A stretch of 64,000 bases of DNA, from the NCBI GenBank assembly GCA_958295935.1, contig OY282385.1, positions 2,521,545 to 2,585,544 of the forward strand, given 5' to 3'. Below the pieces are notes generated by a model. That model saw nothing but the letters and a program-made list of their open reading frames with translations, had not been told where the DNA came from and searched no databases. This stretch comes from an uncultured Dehalococcoidia bacterium (GTDB lineage: Bacteria; Chloroflexota; Dehalococcoidia; Lucifugimonadales; Lucifugimonadaceae). Positions 17,973-56,533 of the stretch are shown here, piece by piece. Made by a program: the position numbers and the translations under genes. Numbering within the stretch: the stretch's first letter is position 1; each line of letters begins with the position of its first letter.

Positions 17973-18787
17973 CGGTTACAGCCGAGCGGCTTAAGCAGCA
18001 GGCACAGACGCGCGGCTTAGGCGAGGCGGACTATCCCGACTTCACGGTCGAGCAGTGGGGTGTTTACGAGGCTGCCCGGCTGTCTGAGATGCCGTCGTCT
18101 GAGTTCCGCGAGTTCGTGTTGTGGGCCTACGGGGCTACTCGCGTTGGGGATGACGGCCCATACATTCATGGCTGGCGCAATCGCCGCCCCATCTGGGTGG
18201 GCGAACCGGGGATGGCCTCTCAGGCTACAGCCGAGGACGTTCGGGACTTTGCGAACGCGATAAGGCGAAGCGTCGAGTATCGCGACGCGAATCTGCGGGA
18301 TGGGACGATGCTGGCGTGGGGGTTTCTGGACAACGCGAAGGAGGCTGCCGAGCAACTACGGCGACGGGAGCAGGTAGACGTCAACTTCGTCCGCCTGAAG
18401 CAGATCCGCATAGGCGACACTGACTTTCGCGAGCACGTGGTTGGCCACTCCACCAAGTGGGCGGACTACAGCGAGTTCCTGACGTTCGTCCAGCCGCCTG
18501 AGGTTTCGGTGGCGTACCGCGCTCTTGGCGGCCTTGCGGTCACTTTCGACGCGGGGGACTCTGCGGTCGTCAATCCCGGTGCGGAGATAGTGAACGTCCA
18601 GTGGGACTTCAACTATGACGGGCGGAACTTCACGGCCACTTCGGGGTATTCCTTCAAGCATAAGAAGGAGATCCAGCTTCTGGTTACCCGCAAGTTCGAC
18701 CGGGCAGGCAGGTTCAGGGTGGCGTGCCGCGTGCAGGACAGTCGCGGGGGCGAGGGGACGTGGGACGGCGTGGTAGAGGTTAGTTAG
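17927..18787 (+). CDS. Type III-like methyltransferase, C-terminal part with PKD-like domain
   Basis: The second half of the same gene in the shifted frame; the frame is open from the G tract, so the listed TTG start is only nominal. The first residues (RRWIGCDQSRVAV) continue the AdoMet-binding region. A Mod C-terminal domain follows. The last 95 residues or so (from about 18510) resemble a PKD beta-sandwich: VTFDAGDS, VQWDFNYDG and AGRFRVACRVQD match the pattern of that fold. A PKD-like domain on a DNA methyltransferase is unusual and may mediate partner contact. The helicase gene starts three bases after the stop. Confidence 0.8.
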   Translation: MHRRWIGCDQSRVAVAVTAERLKQQAQTRGLGEADYPDFTVEQWGVYEAARLSEMPSSEFREFVLWAYGATRVGDDGPYIHGWRNRRPIWVGEPGMASQATAEDVRDFANAIRRSVEYRDANLRDGTMLAWGFLDNAKEAAEQLRRREQVDVNFVRLKQIRIGDTDFREHVVGHSTKWADYSEFLTFVQPPEVSVAYRALGGLAVTFDAGDSAVVNPGAEIVNVQWDFNYDGRNFTATSGYSFKHKKEIQLLVTRKFDRAGRFRVACRVQDSRGGEGTWDGVVEVS

Positions 18788-18790
18788 CGC

Positions 18791-20800
18791 ATGGAAAACA
18801 GGTTCAGCCGCTACGAGGACGAGTTTCAGCAGTGGGTTCAGGGCGGTTATCCGGGGGTCAAGACTGAGACGTTGGAATACATCCGCCACCTCAGCGATCC
18901 CGAGGACGACGCGATGCCGCGCAGGGGGACTCTATGGCCGCATCAGTGGGACTCGTTCCTGCGCGTCGTATATGCGTATGAGATACGTCGTGAGGAGCTT
19001 GCTCGGCCTGGGGGGGTGCTGCTGAACGTGGTGACCGGCGGCGGCAAGACGGCGATTATTGCGGGGTTGATGGCGTGGCTGCGTATCGCCCACGGGGTGC
19101 AGAAGTTCGTGCTGCTGTGTCCGAACCTGATAGTGCGCGATCGTCTGGAGGAGGACTTCCGGAAAGGTAAGGTGTTTGCGGACCGAGGTCTGATTCCGGC
19201 CGGCGGGATTGTGAGGAAGGACGACTTCGAGCTGACCACGTTGGGGAGCGGTCGGCCAGGCGGTTGGGCGAATTTGTTGGGGGCGAGCGTCATTTTGGGC
19301 AACATCCACCAGTTCTATCTCAGCAACGCTTCGGGTCAGAGCAATCTGTCGGGCCTGATGAACGGGCCGGATTTCGCGCTGTTCAACGACGAGGCTCACA
19401 ATTCTCCCGCGCCGGAGTGGGAGTCTGCACTTGAGAAGATGGGTCCCAAAACCGTGCTGCGGGTGGATACTACGGCCACGCCGGATCGCGCGGACGGGAA
19501 GACGCCGGATAGCAGTATGGTCTACGAGTACCTGATACAGGACGCGCTTTCGGACAGGCTGATCAAGACGCCTGTGGTGTATCAGCCCAACATCGAGACG
19601 GTGGAGTTGACGTATACCGACGCGGGTTCAGGGGAGACCAGGGGCGTCGAGGAGATCGACTGGGCGGAGGTGGACCGGCTGGGTCTGAGCGCGACGCAGT
19701 GGGTAACCGACGATAAGCCGATGCAGCAGCAGATGGCGATAGCGTTGGCACGCCTGCGCGAGCAGGAGCGTAGGGCCAAGAGCCGCTATCAGCCGATTCT
19801 ATTCGTGGTGGCGGTTTGCAAGCTGGACGCTCAGAAGGCGGCTAAGACTCTCAGCAAACATTTTAGGATCAAGACGCTGCTGGTCACCGAGGACAGCACG
19901 GAGACAGAGCGGCGCCAGGCGACGGAGTTGGGGAGGGCTCGGGGCGGGAGCAACCCGTACAAGGCTGTGGTGAGCGTGCTGATGCTGCGGGAGGGTTGGG
20001 ACGCGGCGGAGGTTGGCGTCATCCTGCTGCTACGGAAGTTCAGTAGTCGCGTATACGGGCAGCAGGTGATTGGGCGTGGGCTGCGCCGCGTGCGCGTCGG
20101 GAACGTCTCGGAGGACGAGTCGCAGATATGCGCGGTGGTGGATCATCCGAAGCTGAAGCATCAATGGCTGTGGGACATTTTCGGCAGTAAAGTACGCACG
20201 GCGGTGGGGCTTGATGACGAATACGACGAGGATGAAGACCTTCCGGCTCCTCCTCCGCGCCAGATGCTGGTGAATCCGGGGAACGTTATTGAAGTGCCGG
20301 ATCCGTCTGAAGATGACGACGGCGAGTTTGAGCTGGATATTTCCTTCGAGCCGGCCGAGCCGTTGAGGAACTGGCGTGAGAAGCTGGAGGGATTGACCTA
20401 TCCGGTCGAGACGGTGACCATCACGGATCAGAGCATTTCTAGCGTCCAGAGAACGGAGCTAGCGCCTGGCGGTTGGACGGTGCGGGAAAGGGCGCCCGTT
20501 TATGGGGCGGGTGTTGGCGTGGAAGTTGGCACGGAGGAGCTTGCGGGGGGTGTCAAGGATGGGTTGCTGGAGATGGCGGAGAGGCTGCTGGACCACGCGG
20601 GGCATACTCGGCAGTATCAGGGCCCGGTCTACAGCATTCTGCTGGAGCACGTGCGGACGAAGTTTCTGGACGGGGCTTCTACGGGTCTTGCGGAGAGACC
20701 TCGCCTGGAGGCGGCGCTGCGGATGCTCCCGTTGGTCGAAGAGAGGATCAAGGGCGTGCCCGGCCTGATCGAGGGTATGGTGAAGTATGGCGATAAGTAA
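18791..20800 (+). CDS. Superfamily 2 helicase, type III restriction Res-like
   Basis: A 669-residue DNA translocase/ATPase: motif I TGGGKTA near residue 83, DEAH box (NDEAHN) near 203, motif III TTATP, and motif VI QVIGRGLRRV near residue 420. An acidic stretch (DEYDEDED) follows the helicase core. It resembles the ATPase part of type III restriction subunits but lacks the C-terminal nuclease domain; a separate PD-(D/E)XK gene overlaps its end by 14 bases. It is therefore the motor of the restriction complex formed with the upstream methyltransferase. The start lies directly after the methyltransferase stop. Confidence 0.85.
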   Translation: MENRFSRYEDEFQQWVQGGYPGVKTETLEYIRHLSDPEDDAMPRRGTLWPHQWDSFLRVVYAYEIRREELARPGGVLLNVVTGGGKTAIIAGLMAWLRIAHGVQKFVLLCPNLIVRDRLEEDFRKGKVFADRGLIPAGGIVRKDDFELTTLGSGRPGGWANLLGASVILGNIHQFYLSNASGQSNLSGLMNGPDFALFNDEAHNSPAPEWESALEKMGPKTVLRVDTTATPDRADGKTPDSSMVYEYLIQDALSDRLIKTPVVYQPNIETVELTYTDAGSGETRGVEEIDWAEVDRLGLSATQWVTDDKPMQQQMAIALARLREQERRAKSRYQPILFVVAVCKLDAQKAAKTLSKHFRIKTLLVTEDSTETERRQATELGRARGGSNPYKAVVSVLMLREGWDAAEVGVILLLRKFSSRVYGQQVIGRGLRRVRVGNVSEDESQICAVVDHPKLKHQWLWDIFGSKVRTAVGLDDEYDEDEDLPAPPPRQMLVNPGNVIEVPDPSEDDDGEFELDISFEPAEPLRNWREKLEGLTYPVETVTITDQSISSVQRTELAPGGWTVRERAPVYGAGVGVEVGTEELAGGVKDGLLEMAERLLDHAGHTRQYQGPVYSILLEHVRTKFLDGASTGLAERPRLEAALRMLPLVEERIKGVPGLIEGMVKYGDK

Positions 20801-32472: not shown

Positions 32473-33228
32473 CTATTCGCTCCAATCGTCTTCCTCGTAG
32501 TCCGGGTGGCCGAAGCCGGTTACTCCCCCGGCAGCTGTTGGCAGCAATGGGCTGCGTTCCTCGCTCCGCTCTCTGGGGTCCAGATTTTTGATGGCATCAC
32601 GAAGATTTTCCAACTCCTTGGGGTCGGATTGGTCGGCGTTTATCACGAGAGCTGATATTGGGAGGTCTCTGAGCGCTTCCAACTCGTTCTCATCGGGGAG
32701 ACGTTCAACCTCCAGGAATATGTTCTTGGTGAACAGGGATACGGTTTCCTGTAGTTCAATGACTCCCTCTACCGTCAAGGGGGCGGATGGATCCGGCGCG
32801 CGAATGAGGAGGAATTCGAAAGGCATGTCTTCGATAGCGCGGGCTTTGCGGTCGGTGAGTTCGTGTTGGAGCGTTAAACCTCGGCTCATGCCGTCGTCTC
32901 GGAGGATCAAAGAGGCTGCTTCGCCGGACTCGACAAGCACGAAGTCGCACCCTGCTTCCTTTAGCGAGTCCAATCCTTCCGGGCTGGCGTTCGACAAGGC
33001 AGCGCCCCATATTCCCTTCCATCCAGACGGGCTTTGGTCTATGTCTAGGTCACCGTCGGCGAGAAGTGCGTCCAAGGACTTGGCGACTTTGGCGAGAGGC
33101 TTTTTTCGAGCGGTTTTGCCGACGATAAGCATCAATGGGATCTTCTGCCGCGTTTGCTGCTGCCCAAATCCAATGGGTGCGGGTTCCGCCATTCCCAGGT
33201 TCGAGAGCGTGTCTATAAGCTTGCTCAA
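32473..33228 (-). CDS. Unrecognised protein coupled to PAC2
   Basis: A 251-residue protein I do not recognise. The chosen TTG overlaps the stop of the PAC2 gene (TTGA) and is preceded by AAGGA; an ATG 12 codons later is an alternative. The much longer open reading upstream is only the PAC2 gene in another frame. Alternating strand/helix segments (LMLIVGK, DFVLVES, FLLIRAP, NIFLEVE, ALVINAD) suggest a TIM-barrel-like alpha/beta fold. The C-terminal 30 residues are acidic and low in complexity. Tight linkage with PAC2 implies a shared function. Confidence 0.7.
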   Translation of the reverse strand: MSKLIDTLSNLGMAEPAPIGFGQQQTRQKIPLMLIVGKTARKKPLAKVAKSLDALLADGDLDIDQSPSGWKGIWGAALSNASPEGLDSLKEAGCDFVLVESGEAASLILRDDGMSRGLTLQHELTDRKARAIEDMPFEFLLIRAPDPSAPLTVEGVIELQETVSLFTKNIFLEVERLPDENELEALRDLPISALVINADQSDPKELENLRDAIKNLDPRERSEERSPLLPTAAGGVTGFGHPDYEEDDWSE

Positions 33229-34181
33229 CTCAGGTCTCGTCCTTCTGTTCCGGAAGGGCCTCTCTGACGGCGCAGGAATTCTTCCAGTTCCTGCACGATC
33301 AGGCCGGGTTCTTTCTGCCGCGAAGATTCCTCTTCGGTGTCGTACCGCTCCTCCAGGCGTTTCACGTATCCTGCTATGTCGCTTTCTCCTTCCAATGCGC
33401 GGGTCAGGTTTGCGGCGTACTCCTCCGACTCCACCCGTAGCTTGTCCATCTCTATGCTCCGGGGTAGGAAGGGTTGCAGTTTTTCCAGGATGGCGTGCGT
33501 CAGGGAGGGATTGTGTGATACCTGAACGTAGTGGGGTGCGTGGCCCCATATGCTTACCCACGGGACGTCGTGTTTCGAGTAGGCGTCGGTTATTACGGAG
33601 GTAAGGCCAGACGGCCCTTCGTAAGTGGGTCTGGGGAACCGTAGGCTTTCGAAGCCGGGCCCTAATTGGTCCTGACCTGCGGACACTGTTACGCGGGGCG
33701 ATCTTGTGTGTGGGACTGAGTCGAGGAGGGCACCCACGGTGACCAGTAGATCGACTTTGGACGGGTCGGCTACTTCCAGAAACTTTTCTGCGTATAGCTT
33801 CCATCGCAGATGCGGTTCGACGCCGAGGAAGGTGACGGCGTCTCTCTCGCTCTGCCTGTCGGAGTCGTCCGGCTGCCAATAGAAGAACTGGTTCGTCGGC
33901 CACTCGAGTTTCCGTACTCCTTGGTCGTCGTAACTGACCATGGGGCGCTGCTGAGAAAAATCGTAGAAGAGTTCCGGGTCGATCCCTGCCAATTTCCCGG
34001 CGGGGAGTTGGCGGTTCACCTCCCGGATGGCACGGGTGGCGGCTTCCGCCGCGTCCGACCAGCCTGCCCATGCGGCGATGAGAATCGTTCGCCTGAGCTT
34101 TGGACGCTCGAAGTATTTGAGTATGTGCAATTGGCCTCGTTGGGAATGTGCCGGCGAACCGGGCCGCGGTGACTGATTCAT
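33225..34181 (-). CDS. PAC2 family protein
   Basis: A 318-residue PAC2 (proteasome-assembly-chaperone-2-like) protein. Typical parts are the N-terminal ILIAAWAGWSDAAEAAT, the central VTVGALLDSVPHTR and GPSGLTSVITDA, and VSIWGHAPHYVQ. The family is found in archaea, Actinobacteria and Chloroflexota, often annotated as ATP-grasp-superfamily-like; its bacterial role is not established. The last 60 residues are charged and helical. It is followed by the unknown gene with a four-base overlap. Confidence 0.88.
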   Translation of the reverse strand: MNQSPRPGSPAHSQRGQLHILKYFERPKLRRTILIAAWAGWSDAAEAATRAIREVNRQLPAGKLAGIDPELFYDFSQQRPMVSYDDQGVRKLEWPTNQFFYWQPDDSDRQSERDAVTFLGVEPHLRWKLYAEKFLEVADPSKVDLLVTVGALLDSVPHTRSPRVTVSAGQDQLGPGFESLRFPRPTYEGPSGLTSVITDAYSKHDVPWVSIWGHAPHYVQVSHNPSLTHAILEKLQPFLPRSIEMDKLRVESEEYAANLTRALEGESDIAGYVKRLEERYDTEEESSRQKEPGLIVQELEEFLRRQRGPSGTEGRDLS

Positions 34182-34534
34182 ACGGGGTCTACAGTCTAGC
34201 GCTTGTCAGCGCCGGAGCAGCGAGGGGGGATGGCGCTGGCTGCGCTGGTCTAACCGCCTCATGGGACTTTGTGATCTTTTCTATTTGAGTCGGTGATTGC
34301 AAGTGTGCATTTCGGCTGTGTGTGTGGCAGGATCATCTTTGTAGTTGGAACAAGGCGCGATGCTATGGTTGCAGATCTACGTTCTTTGTACCCGGATTAC
34401 TCTTGGAATGGCCGATATATTCTCTCCGTAGTACTTTGCTTATGCGGGGGGCAGCGTATGCATCACGGAGTCGCGGTATATCTGCGTGCTTTCCCGCGGC
34501 TCCGCGCGCTGTGGGATGTGGCCCGCGCCGGGTC
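34182..34534 (+). other. Intergenic region containing the tail copy of the GIY-YIG repeat
   Basis: No gene. The part from 34439 onward is the downstream flank of the GIY-YIG array and is duplicated at 36192. The stretch 34260-34430 is more AT-rich than the surroundings and holds nothing I recognise. Confidence 0.5.
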
Positions 34535-34578
34535 TTACCTGTTCCAGGGCGGTCTGAGCGATGCTATCAGTCTGCTCT
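34439..34578 (+). repeat. Direct repeat, copy 1, 3' flank of the GIY-YIG array
   Basis: About 140 bases nearly identical to 36192-36331 with no indels between copies (constant offset of 1753). The similarity continues into the coding domain. It shows that whole units, including non-coding tails, were duplicated. Confidence 0.85.
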
Positions 34579-36178
34579 CGGCCTCCAGGCGAGCGTGCTC
34601 GTCGACTTCTATTGAATGGAACCACAGAGCTAAGTTCTCGCCGGTCCTGGTTTTCTCGTAGATGAGGTTGTTGATCCGGCAATTCGTATCCTGACCGCCC
34701 CAGTAGCAGTTCTGAGGCGAAACGCCGAATCCTGTTGTTCCCCAGCGGTCTTCCAGATTCTGGCACTCGCCGACATAGAGTGGATCATCTCCATTCGCAA
34801 GAACATATACGCCGCTCTGCTGCCAACCCTTCGCCACCAGGAACCGGCAGAACGGCCCCTGCCCGTACTTGCTCAGCGGGAGATTCTGTTCATTGCGGAA
34901 CCTGTGCTGCGGCAATTCTCCGATGACTTTGCGGTATTCGTCGCACTTCGGCAGAATCGGTCCGACGTATGAGAAGAGGATTCCGGCAAAGACGCGTCCG
35001 TTTTCCGCCGTAGCTTTCTTGCTTATCGGACCCGCCGGGGATGTCGGGGATACGGTGACAGGGTTGGCCCAGGCCGGCGACGACTCGCGCGGCCTGGATG
35101 TCGGTGGACTGGGGAAGGCGGTATGAGTGAGGTTCCAGGGCGGATTCAGTTCGGCAACCAGCTTGGCCTTGAGCATTTCGCGCTCTGCGTCGTTTTCAAG
35201 GGCGTGGAACCATAGGACAGCTTCCGCTCCCCGCTTGGCCTCGTCGAGTATCAGAGCGTTGATCCGGCAGTGAGTTTGTTGCCCTCCTATGCGAACTGCT
35301 GACGGCGTTATGCGGCCAACGAAGTTCCAAATCATTGCAAGGTTCTTGCACATGCCCACGTAGTGCGCTGCGCCGCGGTAAGAGAGAACGTAGACTCCGC
35401 TGCGCCGCCAACGGTTTTCTTGCGCAATCCTGAACCGGCAGAACGGCCCCTTGCCGTATCTGTGCATTTGCACATCGCTCGGCAGTTTCGGACTTTCCTC
35501 GATCAGCACGCCCTTACAGTCGCGCTTCGGCAGAATCGGTCCGACGTATGAGAAGAGGGTCCCCGCAAAGACGCGTCCGCTTTCCGCCGTACCTTTCTTG
35601 CTTGTCGGACGCGCCGGGGATGCCGGGGATACGGCGACAGGGTTGACCCAAGCCGGCGACGGCTCGCGCGGCCTGGACGTCGGTGGACTGGGCAGGGCGG
35701 TAGAAGTGAGGTTCCAGGGCGGATTCAGTTCGGCAACCAGTCTGGCCTTGAGCGCTGTGCGGTCTACGGCGTTTTCAAGGGCGTGGAACCACAGATCGAA
35801 GTTCTCTCCGGTCCTGGTTTTCTCGTAGATGAGGTTGTTGATTCGGCAATTCGTATCCTGACCGCCCTTGTAGCAGTTCCTAGGCGAAATGCCGCCGAAG
35901 CCTCTTGTTCCCCAGCGGTCTTCCAGATTCTGGCACTCGCCGACGTAGAGTGGATTATCTCCATTCGCAAGAACGAATACGCCGCTCTGCTGCCAACCCT
36001 TCGCCACGCGGAACCGGCAGAACGGCCCCTGCCCGTACTTGCTCAGCGGGAGGTTCTGCTCATTGCGGAACCTGTGCTGCGGCAATTCTCCGATGACTTT
36101 GCCGTATTCGTCGCACTCCGGCAGAATCGGTCCGACGTATGAGAAGAGGATTCCGGCAAAGACGCGTCGGCTTTCCAC
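34535..36178 (-). CDS. Triple GIY-YIG nuclease-domain protein
   Basis: A 547-residue protein of three tandem GIY-YIG-type units of about 185 residues joined by Pro/Ser-rich linkers. Each unit begins RVFAG.LFSYVGPILP and holds a GVYVL/GVFVL strand, a YVGECQNLEDRW helix with the catalytic Arg, and NCRINNLIYE with the catalytic Glu. The middle unit differs: NLAMIW lacks the Arg and ALILD has Asp at the Glu position, so it is probably inactive. Translation seems to begin at a GTG preceded by AAGGAAGG, a sequence itself derived from a linker. A single-domain gene lies immediately upstream. Likely a DNA nuclease linked to restriction or repair; target unknown. Confidence 0.82.
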   Translation of the reverse strand: MESRRVFAGILFSYVGPILPECDEYGKVIGELPQHRFRNEQNLPLSKYGQGPFCRFRVAKGWQQSGVFVLANGDNPLYVGECQNLEDRWGTRGFGGISPRNCYKGGQDTNCRINNLIYEKTRTGENFDLWFHALENAVDRTALKARLVAELNPPWNLTSTALPSPPTSRPREPSPAWVNPVAVSPASPARPTSKKGTAESGRVFAGTLFSYVGPILPKRDCKGVLIEESPKLPSDVQMHRYGKGPFCRFRIAQENRWRRSGVYVLSYRGAAHYVGMCKNLAMIWNFVGRITPSAVRIGGQQTHCRINALILDEAKRGAEAVLWFHALENDAEREMLKAKLVAELNPPWNLTHTAFPSPPTSRPRESSPAWANPVTVSPTSPAGPISKKATAENGRVFAGILFSYVGPILPKCDEYRKVIGELPQHRFRNEQNLPLSKYGQGPFCRFLVAKGWQQSGVYVLANGDDPLYVGECQNLEDRWGTTGFGVSPQNCYWGGQDTNCRINNLIYEKTRTGENLALWFHSIEVDEHARLEAESRLIASLRPPWNR

Positions 36179-36191
36179 CGTACCTTCCTTG

Positions 36192-36331
36192 CTTATGCGG
36201 GGGGCAGCGTATGCATCACGGAGTCGCGGTATGTCTGCGTGCTTTCCCGCGGCTGCGCGCGCTGTGGGATGTGGCCCGCGCCGGGCGCTACTTGTTCCAG
36301 GGTGGTCTGAGCGATGCTATCAGTCTGCTCT
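36192..36331 (+). repeat. Direct repeat, copy 2, 3' flank of the single GIY-YIG gene
   Basis: Second copy of the 140-base repeat found at 34439. It follows the single-domain nuclease gene and separates it from the triple gene. Confidence 0.85.
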
Positions 36332-36758
36332 TGGCCGCCAAGCGAACGTGTTTGTCGCCTTCTATTGAGTGGAACCACAGATCGAAGTTCTCGCCGGTCC
36401 TGGTTTTCTCGTAGATGAGGTTGTTGATTCGGCAATTCGTATCCTGACCGCCCTTGTAGCAGTTCCTAGGCGAAATGCCGCCGAAGCCTTTTGTTCCCCA
36501 GCGGTCTTCCAGATTCTGGCACTCGCCGACATAGAGTGGATTATCTCCATTCGCAAGAACGAATACGCCGCTCTGCCGCCAACCCTTCGCCACCTGGAAT
36601 CGGCAGAACGGCCCCTGCCCGTACTTGCTCAGCGGGAGGTTGCGCTCATTGCGGAACCTGTGCTGCGGCAATTCTCCGATGACTTTGCCGTATTCGTCGC
36701 ACTCCGGCAGAATCGGTCCGACGCGCTCGAAGTCATATCCTGCGAAGGTGCGTCCCAT
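36288..36758 (-). CDS. Single-domain GIY-YIG nuclease
   Basis: A 156-residue protein equivalent to one unit of the triple gene: MGRTFAGYDFERVGPILP, then GVFVL, YVGECQNLEDRW and RINNLIYE, so all GIY-YIG landmarks including Arg and Glu are present. It ends SLRPPWNK like the last unit of the triple protein. Since its N-terminus (FAGYDFERVGPI) is closest to the usual form of this family, it is probably the ancestral copy from which the others arose. Its ATG overlaps the stop of a small upstream reading frame (TAATG). Confidence 0.83.
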   Translation of the reverse strand: MGRTFAGYDFERVGPILPECDEYGKVIGELPQHRFRNERNLPLSKYGQGPFCRFQVAKGWRQSGVFVLANGDNPLYVGECQNLEDRWGTKGFGGISPRNCYKGGQDTNCRINNLIYEKTRTGENFDLWFHSIEGDKHVRLAAKSRLIASLRPPWNK

Positions 36759-37024
36759 TAGGCACCTGGAATCTTGGTGGGCCGTAGAACCGCGTTGAGC
36801 GTTTGCCGGTTCGAGATTGTCACGTTACGCCGCTGAGCGCTGGGATACGCGTTCATCTGAGCCTTGTCGATTCCCGTCTCTGAAGGATGGACGCCTTCAG
36901 GCCCGTCAAGCGCGGGCAGACCGTCGAACGTAGTGTTGATATTCGAGCCACAGGGCGGTTCTACGAACTTGATTCCGTCATTCCTGCCTGGGCAGGAATC
37001 CCGGCTGTCCTGGGACTCGGCCAT
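36758..37024 (-). CDS. Small reading frame of doubtful status upstream of the GIY-YIG gene
   Basis: An 88-codon frame whose stop overlaps the nuclease start (TAATG), which suggests coupling. Residues from about 20 on (SNINTTFDGLPALDGPEG) look like protein, but the first 20 residues are encoded in a repeat-like palindrome, so the true start is probably lost. It may be the 3' remnant of a larger gene that once preceded the nuclease, such as a restriction-modification partner. I cannot identify it. Confidence 0.3.
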   Translation of the reverse strand: MAESQDSRDSCPGRNDGIKFVEPPCGSNINTTFDGLPALDGPEGVHPSETGIDKAQMNAYPSAQRRNVTISNRQTLNAVLRPTKIPGA

Positions 37025-37359
37025 CCCGGCCTTTCTGAAAGTCTCTCCCGTATCTGGGGGCCGGACATGCTACGAATCGAGATACTTGCACAGTTCCGCA
37101 AGCGGGTCAACAACATGCGAGTGGAAAGTCACCGTCAGCGTAGACCTCGCGGCTCCCGGATTCCTGCCTGCGCCGGGAGACTGGTCTGTTCACAAGGCTT
37201 ATGGTACGTGTAAATGACGGTTGCACTATGTCTAGAAACATCAACACTATCTGGTCGCCTGTTTGGAAGTGTATGATCTTTCTATGTTTATGCAATAAAC
37301 GAATATGTCAAGATTATTGCATTGCTGGAATCAGCCATGACGTGGATTTAATAGCGCAT
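37025..37359 (+). other. Intergenic region with palindromic repeats and an AT-rich stretch
   Basis: No gene seen. A palindrome ATTCCTGCC-tg-GGCAGGAAT lies just before this stretch (about 36980-37000), and a related sequence with CTCCCGG/CCGGGAG arms recurs near 37150-37175; both share ATTCCTGCCTG and look like members of one dispersed palindromic family. From about 37200 the DNA is notably AT-rich. Confidence 0.45.
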
Positions 37360-38178
37360 CTAATGCGAAAAGCGGGTTACGTAGCGCACGATGGAAGAAT
37401 CATAGGGCAGGGAATGGCCGTCGAACGCGGGTTGGTTGGTGAGGTCGGTCTTGGCCATCGGGGTTCCGTTTGCCAGTTCTCGCACCGCCATCTCCGCCAA
37501 CTTGGGCAGGGAGGCCACGTCCTCGGCGTTGTATCGAATGAGCGTATCCAGCGCGCCCTCTTCTCCCTGCTGCGCCAACTCCCAGAGCAGAACTGCGTGA
37601 AAGCCGTTGAGGCCAGACAACTCGCCGGGGCGGTGCAGGCCGGTAGCGTACTCGATGCGCTTCAGCCCGCCTCGGTAGCCCAGTCTGTAGAGAACCCAGC
37701 GCAGATCGATATGGGCAAAGGCATCGGGAATGTCGGGAAACTCGGTGCGAAGAAACGGTAGGTCGAAGGAGGCGCCGTTGTAAGTGATTACCAGTCGGTA
37801 TCTACCGAGTATTTCGGGTAGCTCATCGAGGTCGTCCCCGCGCGTAAGCGCTCGGAAACCGCTTTTGTCCAGCAGCCCGACCATCGTGGTGTAGGAGTAG
37901 TCGGGAGAGAGTCCGGTGGTTTCTATGTCGAGGAATACGGCGTCGTCCAGAAAATCGGCGTAGAGTCGCCACCGCTCTCGTCCGGGCAGGCGCTGCTGGA
38001 AGTAACGGGCGTCCCGCTGAGCGAGCTTCGAGGAGGACTCCGCGAGTCCGGAGACGTGAGCCGCGTCGGCTCGTCCCGATCGGGCCAGGGCGTCCCATGT
38101 CGTCAGGCCCTGTTCCCACCACGCCTCTTCGGTGGCGGGGCCTACTCCTCTCAGATGTTGGAACGAATGGACTAACAG
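37360..38178 (-). CDS. YprB-like RNase H-fold exonuclease, probable CTG start
   Basis: A 272-residue protein. Its N-terminus has a helix-hairpin-helix-like FQHLRGVGPATEEAWW, then RWRLYADF and the DEDD exonuclease motif I as FLDIETTG, a motif II-like YNGASFDLPFLRTEF, and a final YNAEDVASL. This is the arrangement of YprB-type ribonuclease-H-like proteins. No ATG, GTG or TTG exists in this frame between the upstream stop and codon 99, although the conserved N-terminal region is fully encoded. A CTG at 38178 is preceded by GGAGAG at 5 bases and gives the expected N-terminus. It would act as a 3'-5' exonuclease on DNA or RNA. Confidence 0.78.
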   Translation of the reverse strand: MLVHSFQHLRGVGPATEEAWWEQGLTTWDALARSGRADAAHVSGLAESSSKLAQRDARYFQQRLPGRERWRLYADFLDDAVFLDIETTGLSPDYSYTTMVGLLDKSGFRALTRGDDLDELPEILGRYRLVITYNGASFDLPFLRTEFPDIPDAFAHIDLRWVLYRLGYRGGLKRIEYATGLHRPGELSGLNGFHAVLLWELAQQGEEGALDTLIRYNAEDVASLPKLAEMAVRELANGTPMAKTDLTNQPAFDGHSLPYDSSIVRYVTRFSH

Positions 38179-45356: not shown

Positions 45357-47213
45357 ATGGCAAATATGACAGACAAGCGCGCGGTCAGCTCGACTCTGCA
45401 AGGCATCCGCGCCAGGCTCGGCCTGACGCGGGAGCGTCTCGCGGAGCGTCTTGGGGTTTCCTTTGCCGCGGTGAATCGCTGGGAGGATGGCGGGGCGATG
45501 CCCCGCAAGGTGTCTCGGACGGCCATCGCCGCGCTTGCCGCGGAGGCAGGCATAGAGGTCGTTGCCGGCGTCCGTTCGTCCGTCGATGGAAGCGAGGCGG
45601 CGTCCCGCGTGACCCGTCGTCGGTCCCGCAGGCGCCAGGCCGCGGTTCCATCGACCAAGCCCATGGAGCAGATGCTGTGGGATGCGGCCTGTTCCATCCG
45701 GGGCCAGAAAGACGCGTCCAAGTTCAAGGACTACCTGCTGCCTTTGCTCTTCCTCAAGCGTCTTTCGGACGTCTTCGACGACGAGATGGCGCGCCTGGCC
45801 AAGGAGTTAGGCGGCATAGAGTCGGCCAAGGAGATAGCGGAGGACGACCACGAAGTGCTGCGCTTCTACCTGCCTTTGGAGGCGCGCTGGTCGGTCATCA
45901 GCGGGCGGGAAGGCCACGATTGGCCTGACGACGAATGGGGGCAGAGCACGCGTCCGAGGGACATAGGCGACCATCTGACCAAGGCGGTCAGGGCGGTCGT
46001 CAAGCGGAACCCCACTCTTTCGGGGGTGATCGACCTGGTGGACTTTGCGGAGGAGCGCAACGGGGTGCGCGACATCGACGCGGCTCGGCTGTCCGCGGTC
46101 GTCGAGACCTTCAGCGATCCCCGCTACCGGCTTGGCCTCGACGACGTTCAGCCGGACTTCCTGGGGCGCGCCTATGAGTACCTTCTCAGAAAGTTCGCGG
46201 AGGGATCCGGTCAGAGTTCGGGAGAGTTCTTCACTCCGACGGAGGTCGGATTTCTGATGGCGCACCTGATGCGGCCCAAGTCTGGCGAGCGCTGCCACGA
46301 CTACGCCTGCGGCTCTGCCGGACTGCTCATCAAGCTTCAGTTGGCGGCCCGTGAGCTCGACCCTGCGAGCCGCGGGGTTCCGCTCAAGCTGTACGGTCAG
46401 GAGTTGCAGGCGGACAGCTACGCGGTGGCCCGCATGAACGCCGTCATCCACGACATGTCGGAGGTTCAGATCGAGCGCGGCGACACGATGACAAGCCCGA
46501 AGTTCCGGGACGCTTCCAGCCGGATTGCGACCCACGACGTCGTGGTGGCCAATCCCATGTGGAACCAGAATTTCGACTCCGGCGTCTTCGTGAACGACCC
46601 GTTCGACCGTTTCCGCGCTGCGGGCGGCATCACCACGGGGAAGGGGGACTGGGCCTGGCTTCAGCACACTCTGGCGTGTATGAACGAGCGCGGTCGTGCG
46701 GCCGTGGTGCTGGACACCGGCGCGGTGACGCGCGGCTCGGGGGCGAAGCACGAGGACAGGGAGCGGAACATCCGCAAGTGGTTCGTCGAGCGGGACCTGA
46801 TCGACGGCGTGATCCTGCTGCCGGACAACCTCTTCTACAACACCAGCGCGGCGGGCATCATCGTGGCGCTATCGAAGCGCAAGCCGGCGGCGCGGCAAGG
46901 GAAGATCGTGCTTCTGAACGCCAGCCGGAGGGTGCGCAAGGGCCGGCCCAAGAACTTCATTCCGGAGGAGGACATACGCCCGTTGGCGGATATGTTCCTG
47001 AAGGGCGAGCCGGTGGAGGGCGAGGCGGCGGTCATAACGCGGGAGCAGGCTAAGGAAGCGGACTACAACCTGAGCCCTAGCCGATGGGTGGGGCAGGGGG
47101 ATGCCGTCGTCCAGCGTCCGATCAGGGAGATCATTGCGGAGATGCGGAGTCTCGATGAATCGGCCCGCGAGATCGACGTTCGGCTGAAGGACATGTTGGC
47201 GCGTCTGCAATAG
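45357..47213 (+). CDS. hsdM: Type I restriction-modification system methyltransferase HsdM with N-terminal HTH
   Basis: A 618-residue protein. Residues 12-60 are an Xre-like helix-turn-helix ([20 protein letters not shown]). After a basic linker comes the HsdM N-terminal helical domain ([16 protein letters not shown]), then the methyltransferase: [16 protein letters not shown], the AdoMet site [12 protein letters not shown], and motif IV as [10 protein letters not shown] instead of the usual NPPF/Y. The HTH could bind the own promoter and regulate the operon (inference). It is the first gene of a long operon containing hsdS, hsdR and several inserted defence-type genes. Its 3' end is copied in a chimeric gene downstream. 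Confidence 0.93.
47003..47090 (+). repeat. hsdM 3'-end segment duplicated downstream (copy 1)
   Basis: This part of hsdM (encoding [16 protein letters not shown]...SPSRWVG) recurs at 47810-47889 with few changes and a 9-base deletion. It marks a recombination junction. Confidence 0.8.
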
Positions 47214-47249
47214 GCGCGGGAGCTCAGGACCGCAAGGAGGGTTGAGAGC

Positions 47250-47627
47250 ATGGGAGCGACGCACGTGACCGTAGCCATACGCAATCCGGCGCAGCCGGAT
47301 CGGACTTGGGAGGGGCTGTTCCTGGTCGATACGGGGGCGACGGATTCTCTGGCGCCCAGGTCGTGTCTGGAAGCCATCGGCCTTGAGCCGAGGGGTCGGC
47401 GAGTGTACGAACTGGCGGACGGCAGCGAGCTGGTTCTGGACGTCACGGTTGCGGAGATCGAGTTCATGGGTGAGGTGGTCGGGGGTACTGTCATCATGGG
47501 TTCGGACGATGCGGAGCCGCTGCTTGGGGTGACGGCTCTGGAATCGGTGGGCATTGTGGTAGACCCTCTGAACCAGCGTTTGAAGAGGCTGCCGGCGGTG
47601 CGGCTCAAGGGGCTGGGTATTCGATGA
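47250..47627 (+). CDS. Retropepsin-like aspartic protease
   Basis: A 125-residue single-domain aspartic protease-like protein. The active-site motif is LFLVDTGATDSLAP with Asp27, and the C-terminal part has LLGVTALESVGIVVD, equivalent to the hydrophobic-hydrophobic-Gly segment of retropepsins. One domain implies a homodimer. It lies between hsdM and a chimeric ORF, with an ATGA overlap, so it is part of the operon. Function in restriction is unknown; it could process a partner protein or act as a toxin-antitoxin component. Confidence 0.82.
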   Translation: MGATHVTVAIRNPAQPDRTWEGLFLVDTGATDSLAPRSCLEAIGLEPRGRRVYELADGSELVLDVTVAEIEFMGEVVGGTVIMGSDDAEPLLGVTALESVGIVVDPLNQRLKRLPAVRLKGLGIR

Positions 47628-48016
47628 ATACAGCGCGGGCAAGGCGTCCTATTGGGGAGTTGTGCGACCTGATCGCAGAGCCGGTCAGGCCGGGCACTCG
47701 ACCGGATGCGCTCTATCTGGGGCTGGAGCATCTGGCGTCTGGGCGGCTGGTTCGGATTGGCGGCGGTCAGGCGTCGGAGATGCGAAGCAGTACGTCGGCT
47801 GGCGTGAGGGGTGAGCCGGTGGAGGGTGAAGTCGCGGTGATAACGCGGGAGCAGGCGGACTACAAACTGAGCCCTAGCCGTTGGGTGGGTACAACCGGGG
47901 CCAACGACGAAGAGTCCTTGAATAACCTAGTTGACGCGCTCGGGTCTATCTCGGTTACAGAAAGCTCACTTGATAACCAGATCACGTCAACTTTCAATAC
48001 AGTGGAACGCATGTAA
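47624..48016 (+). CDS. Chimeric ORF: HsdS N-terminal fragment fused to an HsdM C-terminal fragment
   Basis: A 130-residue frame. Residues 1-58 resemble the start of a specificity subunit (PDALYLGLEHLASGRL, SEMRSST), while residues 63-89 ([27 protein letters not shown]) match the end of HsdM encoded upstream. The last 40 residues are of lower GC and resemble the helical HsdM tail. The frame is intact with ATGA and TAATG overlaps to its neighbours. It is probably a recombination product between two hsd loci, kept in frame by chance or because coupling is needed for hsdS translation. Confidence 0.75.
   Translation: MNTARARRPIGELCDLIAEPVRPGTRPDALYLGLEHLASGRLVRIGGGQASEMRSSTSAGVRGEPVEGEVAVITREQADYKLSPSRWVGTTGANDEESLNNLVDALGSISVTESSLDNQITSTFNTVERM
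47810..47889 (+). repeat. hsdM 3'-end segment, copy 2, inside the chimeric ORF
   Basis: Second copy of the hsdM tail segment found at 47003-47090, lacking nine bases relative to it. Confidence 0.8.
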
Positions 48017-49254
48017 TGGTCTCGGAGATTATCCCAAGCAACTGGGCATTGTATTCTATTGCTGGGCTCAACGTAGGTGAAGTGAGTATGCTTAATCCAA
48101 CCAAATTTCCGGACGAAGAATTTGAATACTACAGTATTCCTGCTTATCAAAATGCAGAAACACCAGAGATGACGAAAGGGCGCGACATCCTCAGTCAGAA
48201 ATTGCTGATCCCTGAGGTGTGCGTTCTTTTTGGTAAGTTGAACCCGCGCGTGGAAAAAGTATGGAATGTCAAGTCGTACAATCCTTCTCGGCGCATAGCA
48301 TCCACCGAATGGCTTCCTATTATGCCCAAGCCAGGTATCGACCAAGATTATGTCTATTTCCTCATGCACTCCAAATGGGTGATGCCAATTGCGCAAACCC
48401 TAGTTTCGGGATCCACACCAAGCCGCCAGCGAGTCGATCCTGATGCATTTTATAAGATACTTGTTCCAGTACCTGAGTTAGACGAGCAACAGGCGATCAG
48501 TGCGGCACTCAGTCAGGTGCGCGACGCAATCGGGGTACAGGGCCAGAGCATTGCGGTCGCACAGGATTTGAAACGCGCGGCGATGCGGACGCTGTTCACG
48601 CGGGGCCTGCGGGGTGAGGCGCAGAGGGAGACGGAGATCGGGCCGGTGCCGGAGAGTTGGGAGGTGGTGTCTATTGAAAATTCAATTCGGCCCTATAGGT
48701 TCAATCGCGGCATACAGGTGCCCAGATCAGCTTATGCGACAACAGGGACATGGCCAATTATCGATCAGGGACAAGAATTCATTGCAGGTTATATCGACGA
48801 CCAGAAACGAATTGTCCGGCCCGAATGTCCGATCATTATTTTTGGAGACCATACCCGGGTATTTAAATTTGTGGATTTCGATTTCGCATTAGGAGCAGAT
48901 GGAACGAAACCACTCCTGGCCGAGGACGGATTTGACTCTAAATATCTCTATTATTCATTTAGCAACCTGGATGTCCCTTCGAGAGGCTATAATCGTCATT
49001 ACCGTGTATTGATTCAAATGCACATTAAGAAACCATCACTCGCAGAACAGCAAGAGATCGCTGCCATCCTCGAAGCCATCGACCGTAAGATAGACTTGCA
49101 TCGGCGCAAGCGCGCTGTGCTGGAGGAGTTGTTCAGGGCGCTGCTGCACAAGCTGATGACGGGTGAGATACGGGTGGGGGAGCTGGGGACGGTGGGAGCG
49201 GGGGAGAATAGCGACGACCAAAAGGCACCCGAACCGATAGGGGATCTGGTATGA
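48016..49254 (+). CDS. hsdS: Type I restriction-modification specificity subunit HsdS
   Basis: A 412-residue HsdS with two target-recognition domains, each followed by a conserved helix region: first ELDEQQAISAALSQVRDAI, then SLAEQQEIAAILEAIDRKID with the end LEELFRALLHKLMTGEIRV. The second domain starts at IGPVPESWEVV. The recognition domains (about 48020-48470 and 48675-49040) are AT-rich relative to the conserved helices, the usual sign of domain exchange. It determines the sequence recognised by both HsdM and HsdR. Its start overlaps the preceding stop (TAATG), and its end overlaps the next gene by four bases. Confidence 0.93.
   Translation: MVSEIIPSNWALYSIAGLNVGEVSMLNPTKFPDEEFEYYSIPAYQNAETPEMTKGRDILSQKLLIPEVCVLFGKLNPRVEKVWNVKSYNPSRRIASTEWLPIMPKPGIDQDYVYFLMHSKWVMPIAQTLVSGSTPSRQRVDPDAFYKILVPVPELDEQQAISAALSQVRDAIGVQGQSIAVAQDLKRAAMRTLFTRGLRGEAQRETEIGPVPESWEVVSIENSIRPYRFNRGIQVPRSAYATTGTWPIIDQGQEFIAGYIDDQKRIVRPECPIIIFGDHTRVFKFVDFDFALGADGTKPLLAEDGFDSKYLYYSFSNLDVPSRGYNRHYRVLIQMHIKKPSLAEQQEIAAILEAIDRKIDLHRRKRAVLEELFRALLHKLMTGEIRVGELGTVGAGENSDDQKAPEPIGDLV
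49117..49187 (+). repeat. hsdS 3'-end segment duplicated downstream (copy 1)
   Basis: Encodes LEELFRALLHKLMTGEIRVGEL; recurs at 51078-51147 fused to a nucleotidyltransferase fragment. Confidence 0.8.
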
Positions 49255-50888
49255 GATTCAAGAGAGCTACGATCAAGGACTTCAAGCGGTTCACGGACTT
49301 AACCGTTCACAACATTCCAGAAACGGCTCGCCTGATTATGCTAGCCGGTCCGAACGGGAGCGGCAAATCATCATTCTTCGATGCTTTGCATATTTGGGGT
49401 GAATCAAAATCCGGGCGCTCCTCTACCTGGGAGGCTGAATACCATGCGAAGAGATATTCTCCGGAGCTTGGTCATGCCAATTGGAATGACCGAATCCAAA
49501 CAGAGTTACATGAGGACCTTCCGGACAATGTCTATGACAACAGGAAGACTTTCTACATCAGATCTGCGTATAGAAACGATCCTGAATTCCTCATAGGTAA
49601 TCTTATGCGCCAAGGAGACCCTCTGGATCAAATCCCAGTTAGGCGTATGATCGACAACGACGCGAGTGTAAGTCGGAACTACCAGAAGCTGGCTAGCAAA
49701 GGCTTTGAAGATTTATATGAGCAAGGCGACGGATCGACGACATTCACTAAATACCGGAAGGAAAGCATCGGGGATATTCGAGATGCTTTGTGCCAATTAT
49801 TTCCTGACTTGAAGCTGAATGGCTTGGGAAATCCTTTGCACGATGGCACTTTCAGATTTACCAAGGGTGTAAGCCAAGGGTTCGTCTATAAAAACCTATC
49901 TGGGGGAGAGAAGGCTGCGTTCGACCTTATCTTGGATATGGTCATCGCTCGACGCGATTACGACGACACTCTCTATTGTATTGACGAGCCTGAATCGCAC
50001 ATGAATTCACGCCTTCAAGCGGAACTTCTATCAGTTCTGTATGGCCTCATCCCCGGAAAGTGTCAATTGATGTTGGCTACGCACTCTATTGGTATGATGC
50101 GACGCGCGCGGGATATTGGAAAAGAGAATCCTGGGACCGTGGTATTTCTTGACTTTGGAAACCATGATTTCGACCAAAAGATAGTGATTGAACCAACCAA
50201 GCCGGATCGAACTTTCTGGAAAGCTGTTCATGAGGTCGCGCTAGATGATCTGGCAGCACTTATTGCTCCAGAAAAAGTGATTATCTGCGAGGGTGAACCG
50301 AAGAGTACAAATATCAAACGGAACTACTCGCATGATGCGCGTTGCTATGACCAAATCTTCAGCGACGAATTTCCAGAGGCGCGATTCGTTCCTGGAGGCA
50401 ATGATCGTGAAGTAGCAGAGGACAAACGTGGTATCGAGTATACGCTTGGTACATTGACCAAGGGCACCGAGGTCGTCAAACTTATCGACCGAGATGCCAG
50501 ATCTCCTGAAGAGGTTATCGATTTAGGGGAGGACGGCACTCGGGTGCTGTCACGGCGCAACTTGGAGTCTTACCTCTTTGATGACGAGGTTCTTAGTGCG
50601 CTTGCGGCGTCGGTTGGCAAGAAGGACAAGATCAAGGCGCTTCTCGCGAGGAAGGAAGCTATCCGCTCTGCAAGACCCAACGACGCCCCCGACGACCTCA
50701 AGCCAGCCAGTGGTGAGATTTACCTCGCGTGTAAGGGTATTCTGAGCCATCCCAATCCCGGAAACGACGCAAAGTCATTCATGCGCTATACGCTGACCCC
50801 GCTCGTCAAGCCTGGGATGGACGTGTACAAGGAACTGAGGCGTGACATCTTCGGCCCGGATGATGGCGACGTTTCGCAGATGGATTAG
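49251..50888 (+). CDS. AAA ATPase with TOPRIM/DUF4435-like C-terminal region, defence-type
   Basis: A 545-residue SMC/OLD-type ATPase: Walker A GPNGSGKSS near residue 33, ABC-like signature LSGGEKAAF near 219, Walker B LYCIDEPE near 244, and the H-loop ATHS. The C-terminal part (from about residue 340) has IICEGEPKS, KLIDRDARS and SRRNLESYLF, a pattern like TOPRIM or DUF4435 nuclease domains. It thus resembles OLD/GajA proteins, or a fused form of the two PARIS proteins. It overlaps hsdS by four bases (ATGA). Codon GC is lower than that of hsdM, suggesting acquisition. Probably senses phage and degrades nucleic acid. Confidence 0.78.
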   Translation: MRFKRATIKDFKRFTDLTVHNIPETARLIMLAGPNGSGKSSFFDALHIWGESKSGRSSTWEAEYHAKRYSPELGHANWNDRIQTELHEDLPDNVYDNRKTFYIRSAYRNDPEFLIGNLMRQGDPLDQIPVRRMIDNDASVSRNYQKLASKGFEDLYEQGDGSTTFTKYRKESIGDIRDALCQLFPDLKLNGLGNPLHDGTFRFTKGVSQGFVYKNLSGGEKAAFDLILDMVIARRDYDDTLYCIDEPESHMNSRLQAELLSVLYGLIPGKCQLMLATHSIGMMRRARDIGKENPGTVVFLDFGNHDFDQKIVIEPTKPDRTFWKAVHEVALDDLAALIAPEKVIICEGEPKSTNIKRNYSHDARCYDQIFSDEFPEARFVPGGNDREVAEDKRGIEYTLGTLTKGTEVVKLIDRDARSPEEVIDLGEDGTRVLSRRNLESYLFDDEVLSALAASVGKKDKIKALLARKEAIRSARPNDAPDDLKPASGEIYLACKGILSHPNPGNDAKSFMRYTLTPLVKPGMDVYKELRRDIFGPDDGDVSQMD

Positions 50889-50951
50889 CGCGATCGGTGT
50901 GCTCTACGTCTGGGCTAGCAGTGAGTGCTGGCAGAAAGTGAACGTGGATCA

Positions 50952-51191
50952 ATGAATTCAGAGCTGGCGCTTCGTAGGGATGCTGTTGCGGCATTCTGCC
51001 GGGAGCGCGGGATCAAGCGGTTTGCTATCTTTGGCTCGGCGCTGCGGGATGACTTTGGGCCGGAGAACGATATAGACGTGCTGGTGGAGTTGTTCAGGGC
51101 GTTGCTGCACAAGCTGGTGGTGGGTGAGATACAGGTGGGGGAGCTAGGTTTGGCGGCGGTGGATAAGCAAAGCGTGGGGGCGGGTTTATGA
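50952..51191 (+). CDS. Chimeric ORF: nucleotidyltransferase fragment fused to an HsdS tail
   Basis: A 79-residue frame. Residues 1-45 are the start of a Pol-beta minimal nucleotidyltransferase with the metal motif FGSALRDD and ENDIDVLVE. Residues 46 onward (LFRALLHKLVVGEIQVGELG) match the C-terminal end of HsdS encoded 2 kb upstream. The nucleotidyltransferase is cut after its second motif, so it is unlikely to be active. The ATG at 50952 fits the family start; a longer reading is possible. The stop overlaps the TIR gene by four bases (ATGA). Confidence 0.7.
   Translation: MNSELALRRDAVAAFCRERGIKRFAIFGSALRDDFGPENDIDVLVELFRALLHKLVVGEIQVGELGLAAVDKQSVGAGL
51078..51147 (+). repeat. hsdS 3'-end segment, copy 2
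   Basis: Second copy of the HsdS tail segment at 49117-49187, in frame with a truncated nucleotidyltransferase. Confidence 0.8.
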
Positions 51192-52366
51192 CGGAGTCGA
51201 TGGCTCGACCGGCTTTTGCGTTATACGTCGCTTGGCACCCAGACTATGTAAGAGGAGCAGCGATTGCTGAGAGACTTTTACATCACTTTCGCTCCCACCG
51301 TTGCCGCGATATCGTTGGCGGAGCCGGTGTATCGGTACTCTTCCGAAGCGCCAATGCCCCCGGTCTTGAAACGCCGCTATCCATTGAGTGGGGTGATGCG
51401 GAGGTTACAGCGGTGGTCGTGCTGATCGACGATATGCTCGTGGGCGACCCTGAGTGGGTACGGTACGTTCAAACACTTGTGAGCGAGGCTGCCGCCGGGA
51501 GATCTGGCGCTCGCGTATTTCCCGTCAAAATGGAGCCTGGGGTCCTTGGTATGGACCTTGACGTACAGGCGGTACTTTGGGATCGCTGGGCTGGAAGTGA
51601 CGCAGCGAAAAAGCAGCGGTTAATCCGAGATCTCACTTATGAATTCATCCGGATGCTTAGGCACCACTTGGGAAGTCTCCAGCATTCAGAAGATCCGGAC
51701 GTTTTTAAAAATCGCCTGAAGAACATCAGTGTCTTCCTCAGTCATTCCAAGCACGACGAATACGGAGAGACAGTCGCAGAATCTATTCGTGAATGGCTTT
51801 ACCGTAACAGTTTGGTGAAGAATTTCCTTGACGTCTATGATATTCCAGCGGGTCTGTCATTCACCTCTGTGATAGATCATTTCATAAATGTTGGAGCGCT
51901 CTTAACTATCTACACTGACTCTTATTCTTCTCGGCCATGGTGCCACTATGAAGTTATAACGGCTAAGCGCAACAATATCCCCATGCTGGTCGTGGACTGC
52001 CTGGAGGGAATTGACGGGCGTGCCCTGCCATATCTCGGGAACGTGCCGGTTATTCGAATGGATCCCAATCTCATGGATCGGGTCGAACAGATCGCGGGCT
52101 TACTGCTTGAGGAGGTATTCAAGCACTTCCTTTGGCGATGCCGCGTAGAGAGAATGAGATGGTCCCATCCACAAATCATCTTTCTGGCGCGCCCGCCGGA
52201 GCTGATTTCTCTTGCGGCCTTACCGCGTAGCGAGAGTGAAGGCAACCGAGTGATTGTTTATCCTGATCCTCCGCTCGGCGCCGAGGAGACCCGCCTTCTA
52301 TTGGACGCGGGTGTTGATGTATGCTTGTTTAGCCTAACGCAGTGGCAAGGAGAGGCCGGAGCATGA
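51188..52366 (+). CDS. TIR-domain protein with two TIR-like domains
   Basis: A 392-residue protein. Residues 10-125 form a divergent TIR-like domain (FALYVAWHPDYVRGAAIAERL, AVVVLIDDMLVGD). Residues 178-300 form a clearer TIR domain: ISVFLSHSKHDEYG, FLDVYDIPAG, and RPWCHYEVITAKR, in which Glu255 is at the catalytic position of NAD-cleaving TIR domains. It overlaps by four bases (ATGA) a gene for a SLOG-like protein. In known systems such as Thoeris a TIR enzyme makes a signal from NAD that a SLOG domain senses. By analogy this TIR protein is the likely sensor/signal producer (inference). Confidence 0.82.
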   Translation: MTESMARPAFALYVAWHPDYVRGAAIAERLLHHFRSHRCRDIVGGAGVSVLFRSANAPGLETPLSIEWGDAEVTAVVVLIDDMLVGDPEWVRYVQTLVSEAAAGRSGARVFPVKMEPGVLGMDLDVQAVLWDRWAGSDAAKKQRLIRDLTYEFIRMLRHHLGSLQHSEDPDVFKNRLKNISVFLSHSKHDEYGETVAESIREWLYRNSLVKNFLDVYDIPAGLSFTSVIDHFINVGALLTIYTDSYSSRPWCHYEVITAKRNNIPMLVVDCLEGIDGRALPYLGNVPVIRMDPNLMDRVEQIAGLLLEEVFKHFLWRCRVERMRWSHPQIIFLARPPELISLAALPRSESEGNRVIVYPDPPLGAEETRLLLDAGVDVCLFSLTQWQGEAGA

Positions 52367-53181: not shown

Positions 53182-53311
53182 AACTGAATCACCAGCCCCT
53201 TTGTTCTATGGAATCTTGTTGAAGCAGCATTTCTCGATCGCGGTAGATGTGAATATGACTTGAGCCGGCGAATGAGGCGAGCTAATTCATAGAAGGAACG
53301 CCGTCCCCACC

Positions 53312-53494
53312 ATGCCCCCTGATCAAATTACAGCCACAGCCACCTCCGGCGAGTTGGGGACGCTGGGTTTCAAGGAAACCACCGGGACGCGCCGCAACTC
53401 CTCGACTTGCGCCAGGTGCCAGCCTATGAGAATTCGCTTCGTGGGCATTAACAGTTACCATCGCGTCTTCAGCGCTGGTCATATCATTGGCTAG
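53312..53494 (+). pseudogene. Remnant of an AlbA_2/Schlafen-like DNA-binding protein
   Basis: The first 35 codons read QITATATSGELGTLGFKET followed by TGTRRNS, similar to the beginning of AlbA_2-type proteins (ESETLEFKETTG...). Similarity is lost after STCARC and the frame ends 25 codons later. Genes for AlbA_2 proteins are common inside type I loci, so this is probably what remains of one. The remaining part of the 340-base gap between the SLOG gene and hsdR shows nothing else. Confidence 0.4.
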
Positions 53495-53524
53495 CACGCG
53501 GCGTTATCGAGCATAGGACCGGTC

Positions 53525-56500: not shown

Positions 56501-56533
56501 CTGCTAGGCGGAGGCGGCGATGGTGACGCGTGA
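53525..56533 (+). CDS. hsdR: Type I restriction endonuclease subunit HsdR
   Basis: A 1002-residue HsdR. The N-terminal nuclease domain has [11 protein letters not shown] and AAIVEHKNP, giving the Asp and the Glu-x-Lys of the PD-(D/E)XK motif. The helicase part has [11 protein letters not shown] near residue 283, FIDEAHRS near 390 and GFTGTPVA; the second lobe has LTGYDAP and AIARVNRPY. The C-terminal 300 residues are helical and bind the methyltransferase. A TTG start with AGGA at 7 bases is used; an ATG three codons later is the alternative. It translocates and cuts unmodified DNA with HsdM and HsdS. Confidence 0.94.

Follow-up and report, generated by a model that had tools for sequence, protein, structure and literature searches.

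A tandem array of four GIY-YIG nuclease domains, including a conserved domain predicted to be inactive, in an uncultured Dehalococcoidia bacterium

What role a run of GIY-YIG nuclease domains may play when most of its members lack catalytic residues is the question raised by a locus on the minus strand of the window, that is, the whole stretch of 64,000 nucleotides analysed here. Two genes carry four such units in all, one in gene S and three (U1, U2 and U3) in a triple gene that starts 109 nt downstream of S. This division into a single-domain and a three-domain gene had been proposed in the original prediction and is borne out by open reading frames, Pfam and repeat analysis, the triple protein matching PF01541 with an E-value of 6.5e-8. 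In the following, P denotes the inactive-type domain and A the active-type domain.

Layout and genomic position of the array

The features are listed below, with their sources in brackets.

34182-37359, no strand: array-bearing stretch, 3178 nt, between the PAC2-like gene and the RNase H-like gene
34436-34534, minus: 3' non-coding flank, 99 nt, copy downstream of the triple gene (repeat analysis)
34535-36178, minus: triple gene, three GIY-YIG domains, 547 aa, GTG start (ORF list, Pfam, model)
34538-34999, minus: U3, aa 394-547, sole unit with the complete active-site set (profile, alignment, structure model)
35000-35131, minus: linker 2 (U2/U3), aa 350-393, predicted disordered (sequence and model)
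35132-35578, minus: U2, aa 201-349, conserved domain predicted inactive, first 20 codons active-type (sliding identity, tree, alignment)
35579-35710, minus: linker 1 (U1/U2), aa 157-200, predicted disordered (sequence and model)
35711-36169, minus: U1, aa 4-156, active-type core and dead-type C-terminus (sliding identity, alignment)
36176-36188, minus: GTG start and GGAAGG ribosome-binding-like site of the triple gene, linker-derived (sequence comparison)
36189-36196, minus: duplication junction, 8-nt TTGCTTAT in plus-strand reading (sequence comparison)
36189-36287, minus: 3' non-coding flank, 99 nt, copy downstream of S at an offset of 1753 (repeat analysis)
36288-36758, minus: gene S, single GIY-YIG domain, 156 aa (ORF list, Pfam, alignment)

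The units start 579, 591 and 586 nt apart in the repeat analysis; their duplication is thereby upheld, while the unit length of about 555 bases first given proves slightly short. Both linkers of the triple protein are about 44 aa long and Pro/Ser-rich, and the frames of S and the triple gene are all open, without a stop. These four copies are the only ones in the 2.75-Mb genome. An artefactual copy number was judged unlikely, because exact repeats in the array reach at most 96 nt, the copies differ by substitutions and the genome is assembled as one contig. Upstream, an 88-aa minus-strand open reading frame (36758-37024) terminates in a TAATG that it shares with the start of S, an arrangement that would permit translational coupling.

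The array lies between a PAC2-like gene (33225-34181) and an RNase H-like gene (37360-37884). In 21 relatives of the family these two genes are adjacent on the same strand, with a gap of -24 to 136 nt versus 3178 nt here, and the array is absent from the searched relatives of the family, a set that held no same-genus genome. Judged from these comparisons, the array is a lineage-specific insertion between otherwise adjacent genes. Base composition gives no foreign mark, the GC content being 0.58-0.60 in the array versus 0.56-0.63 around it.

Several other features of the region were recorded. The insertion also contains, on the upstream side of S (36975-37168), a short palindrome (CATTCCTGCC/GGCAGGAAT) that recurs in inverted form at a distance of 150 nt; its 21-base pattern is otherwise absent from the genome, so this may be what is left of a small mobile element. 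Genes for a type II/III-like methyltransferase and a type III-like restriction/helicase protein are located at 16962-20800, 14 kb from the array. On the other side, at 9 kb, HsdM, HsdS and HsdR form a type I restriction-modification set at 45357-56533; with them occur an ATPase gene (AriA/PtuA-like match) and, between HsdS and HsdR (51188-53181), two genes without PADLOC match. The sole tRNA gene in the window, at 13573-13670, is predicted to encode a selenocysteine tRNA, which points to the use of selenoproteins by this organism.

Active-site residues and fold of the four units

A family profile of 22 domains, searched against solved structures, matched UvrC (E 1.8e-6) and T4 EndoII (E 4.1e-6), unlike a phmmer search with S alone, which found no solved structure. 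The conserved Glu and Asn of the profile correspond to E76 and N88 of UvrC, with a spacing of 12. The set is complete in U3 (Tyr458, Tyr468, Arg478, Glu534, Asn546). S retains the YIG Tyr76, Arg86 and Asn155, with the GIY Tyr replaced by Phe66 and the catalytic Glu by Lys143; the same two replacements are seen in U1 (Phe68 and Lys144), and in U2 Arg has become Ile283 and Glu Lys337. All five residues are present in 14 of 14 homologues outside the fusions, in U3 and in the C-terminal domain of a two-domain relative (G039, listed below), and Lys occupies the catalytic Glu position in six rows of the 22-domain alignment. PDB titles call the corresponding Eco29kI variants Y49F (GIY Tyr) and E142Q (Glu) inactive.

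With Lys for Glu in S, U1 and U2, and Phe for the GIY Tyr in S and U1, three of the four units are degenerate. The view of a single degenerate middle domain among intact ones hence holds for U2 and fails for S and U1, which carry two lesions each. For U2 itself, loss of the catalytic Arg was correctly recognized; the Glu had been sought at the wrong position ('ALILD'), its true place being Lys337. At the position chosen earlier ('YEK', 'ILD'), homologues with an intact active site have E, Q, M, L or R. S, U1 and U2 are accordingly predicted to be catalytically inactive, and of the four units cutting would be expected of U3 only.

The cysteines of GPFC and NCR/NCK (Cys51 and Cys107 of the U3 domain in alignment A2; 34538-34999, minus strand) are invariant in 22 of 22 family domains, dead ones included. 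The pair may represent a metal site or a disulfide that is particular to the present GIY-YIG domain family.

The U3 structure was modelled from an alignment from which rows of plasmid records were left out (pLDDT 89.6). Its best match is T4 EndoII (PDB 2wsh; Z 12.4, rmsd 2.5, 118 of 133 residues aligned, model residues 1-154), followed by UvrC (Z 8.5), Hpy188I (7.4) and I-TevI (6.9). The likeness to T4 EndoII (denA) extends over the whole domain fold, N-terminal region included, with a Glu-Asn spacing of 12 in both, so that U3 displays the EndoII fold with its N-terminal extension and C-terminal Glu...Asn. The AlphaFold model of the triple protein has three folded cores and disordered linkers; with a pTM of 0.32 it reveals no domain arrangement and is too weak for statements on packing.

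Membership in the GIY-YIG superfamily is evident from PF01541, the complete U3 and the folds of UvrC, I-TevI, Hpy188I and EndoII; S, U1 and U2 belong to it by sequence, with incomplete active sites. Within the superfamily, the N-terminal domain of UvrC shares the fold, and its Tyr, Tyr, Arg, Glu76 and Asn88 align directly, but it is without the N-terminal region and the GPFC...NCR cysteine region carried by the array domains. Pfam found in the array proteins neither the further domains of UvrC/Cho (UvrB-binding, RNase H-like, HhH) nor NUMOD-type DNA-binding domains. As for type II enzymes such as Eco29kI and Hpy188I, no cognate methyltransferase lies beside the array, the nearest ones belonging to the type III-like (14 kb) and type I (9 kb) sets. 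CMoRE (PD-T4-3), which is defined by a third tyrosine, GIYxY-YIG (PMC12923530), was rejected as an assignment: U3 reads GVYVL, without Tyr at that position.

Origin of U2 and formation of the array

Three other genomes of the order carry this domain family:

G039, L005:772-1965: two-domain fusion, 397 aa, in a different family of the order
G050, L006:979-1965: two-domain fusion, 328 aa, in a different family of the order
G177, L012:1483-1959: single domain, in a third genome of the order

The distribution is sporadic (4 of 250 genomes of the order), and fused versions occur in 3 of the 250. The class and phylum samples gave no second-domain match, and no protein with fused GIY-YIG domains was found described in the literature searched, in agreement with the rarity that had been claimed for such fusions. 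Chains thus hold three domains here and two in G039 and G050, with S and G177 single, which departs from the single-domain chain of EndoII-like nucleases. Wider homologues come from Bacillota, haloarchaeal plasmids and viral contigs, several of them fused to DUF7669 or DUF7662; tblastn (E 1e-5) gave no match in 50,697 phage records, and the viral locus L070 yielded no frame under the filter applied. In G039, G050 and G177 the gene adjoins other, differing housekeeping genes, as judged from translations. From these varied neighbours, wide homologues and DUF fusions, the family appears horizontally spread and modular.

A reading of U2 as a recently degenerated duplicate finds no support. U2 belongs instead to an older conserved lineage, common to two other families of the order: together with the N-terminal domains of G039 and G050 it forms one clade (support 100/99), U3, S and U1 form a separate one (99/98), and Arg is already missing from the U2 orthologues in these two families. 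Core identity between genomes is 57-64% for P with P and 49-61% for A with A, indicating a similar degree of constraint on the dead P domain and the live A domain; P has 66 invariant columns, and the three A domains from those genomes have 63. The P domain is known from these three genomes. On the evidence of these sequences, the ancestral form was probably a dead domain joined to a live one. The G050 protein has lost its live partner, since both of its domains lack Arg and Glu (in the C-domain now Gln and Lys), and this pair, predicted to be fully dead, persists as an open frame. The C-terminus of its C-domain resembles that of its own P domain, parallel to U1 here.

Sliding identity shows the units of the array to be recombination mosaics. 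U1 and U2 are 84-88% identical in the C-terminal codons and about 50% over much of the core, whereas the first 20 codons of U2 are 89-93% identical to those of U1 and U3 (U2-U3 93%) and U2-U3 identity over much of the core is 37-52%. The first 13 residues of S are unlike those of U1, U2 and U3, and FERVG there matches the N-domain of G039; this short patch is suggestive of a P-like N-terminus. Synonymous divergence is 0.06-0.13 among the A cores and about 1.4-1.6 between P and A. For the recent A cores omega is 0.32-0.50, with Fisher p of about 0.02-0.06 from approximate counts, and purifying selection on them, S and U1 included, is weakly supported at best.

The flanks record a further event. 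Over 96 nt the two copies of the 3' flank share 96% identity, and the repeat continues without gaps into the coding part, to about 290 nt in total. The duplication, the offset of 1753 and the lack of indels reported earlier for a 140-base non-coding flank are confirmed; just 99 nt of it are non-coding, the rest being the coding ends of the genes. The octamer TTGCTTAT at 36189-36196 is common to the flank (34436-34443) and linker 2 (35019-35026), and by this comparison the transition from flank to linker there is a microhomology junction. As had been proposed, the triple-gene start and its ribosome site are built from a former linker: relative to the U1-U2 linker, two substitutions, A-to-G (giving GGAAGG) and C-to-T (GCG to GTG), yield both. 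A spacer of 4 nt separates GGAAGG from the GTG at 36178, the first start codon of the open frame and the presumed start.

A path that fits these observations, with an order of steps that can be proposed from the sequences, would begin with a P-linker-A protein, in which an inactive EndoII-like domain preceded an active one across a flexible linker. Tandem duplication from linker to flank via microhomology may have been followed by unequal crossing-over of A with P on two occasions, which produced the triple gene, and by a deletion in the upstream copy, of which S would remain. The products would be S, with a short P-like N-terminus and an A core; U1, an A core with a P C-terminus; U2, an A N-terminus with a P core; and U3, entirely A.

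Possible roles of the array and its inactive domains

The reading favoured here, with a probability of roughly 0.55, is that the array encodes an EndoII-like nuclease descended from a P-A ancestor, whose inactive copies have become tethered DNA-binding or assembly modules. It builds on what sequence comparison itself establishes (architecture, mosaic structure, conservation of P, loss of catalytic residues, lineage-specific insertion) and adds to it a DNA-binding or assembly role that P may have. The conserved P domain would serve as a non-catalytic subunit on a tether, binding DNA or holding it in place for cutting by U3; alternatively, it may offer the active domain a surface for dimer or tetramer formation. 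U1 and S would be either additional modules like P or decaying duplicates. That dead domains serve the live one as partners is suggested by the fact that the dead copy which diverges most has been retained by other families of the order.

The use of several subunits by homo-oligomeric GIY-YIG nucleases could serve as a model for P. Eco29kI and Hpy188I act as dimers, one strand being nicked per subunit, and UvrC nicks with one domain (PMC3161791); for this reason P is taken to replace a partner subunit. T4 EndoII, tetrameric according to the title of a structure paper cited in PMC3161791, has one domain per chain, whereas up to three unequal domains, most without catalytic residues, are fused here. 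In the one-domain relatives fused to DUF7669 or DUF7662 (Rummeliibacillus, Paenisporosarcina, Haloplanus, Halorubrum) the domain is of the same family, 35-39% identical to U3 with all active-site residues kept, and the accessory domain is a DUF; here it is an inactive copy of the nuclease domain. XPF-ERCC1 and Mus81-Eme1 each retain an inactive nuclease-like partner that assists the active one. The analogy with the array is functional only, as those proteins have another nuclease fold, consist of separate chains and are eukaryotic.

A possible though less probable explanation is decay, with S and U1 as recent non-functional duplicates in an array drifting to loss, whose importance lay in the old P-A core (U2-U3) alone or has vanished altogether. 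The two catalytic lesions in each of S and U1, the weakness of purifying selection, the sporadic occurrence of the family and the G050 protein, with Arg and Glu gone from both domains, are consistent with it. Against this, every frame is open, U1 has acquired a start and a ribosome-binding-like site, and conservation across families is as high for P as for A.

Defence or DNA degradation, somewhat more doubtful again, concerns the biological role and is compatible with P acting as a dead partner. The protein would be a stand-alone restriction-like enzyme, with P sensing foreign or modified DNA in place of DUF7669 or DUF7662, to which relatives fuse the same domain. The closest structure, T4 EndoII, degrades bacterial DNA without the cytosine modification of T4 (PMC1564403), and type III-like and type I restriction genes lie nearby. 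However, the immediate neighbours are not defence genes, a cognate methyltransferase is absent beside the array, PADLOC gave weak and partial matches only (to the PDC-S14 and HmaA models), and the literature search found nothing naming DUF7669 or DUF7662.

It is improbable that the array is a selfish homing-type element, that is, a free-standing GIY-YIG endonuclease inserting at intergenic sites and now partly inactivated in a burst-and-decay cycle: a 3.2-kb lineage-specific insertion amid conserved neighbours could be mobile, housekeeping neighbours differ among G039, G050 and G177, homologues occur on plasmids and viral contigs and lesioned copies lie beside intact ones, but no intron or intein context was seen, Pfam detected no sequence-specific DNA-binding domain, cleavage at insertion sites is putative and the conserved P domain is left unexplained. 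An equally long shot is an asymmetric version of the EndoII tetramer assembled from the four domains of S and the triple protein, with one live site (U3): repeated inactivation of copies would have converted an enzyme of identical subunits into a tethered nickase or tightly controlled nuclease.

Returning to the tethered-partner reading, the conserved dead domain is of more interest than the copy number. If P is a working pseudo-nuclease, the array would exemplify, among prokaryotic GIY-YIG proteins, the retention of a dead nuclease domain as a partner, and nature offers versions with one, two and three domains to compare. The locus also presents a nuclease array caught after duplication, chimera formation and de novo formation of a start site, in which the marks of recombination are still legible.
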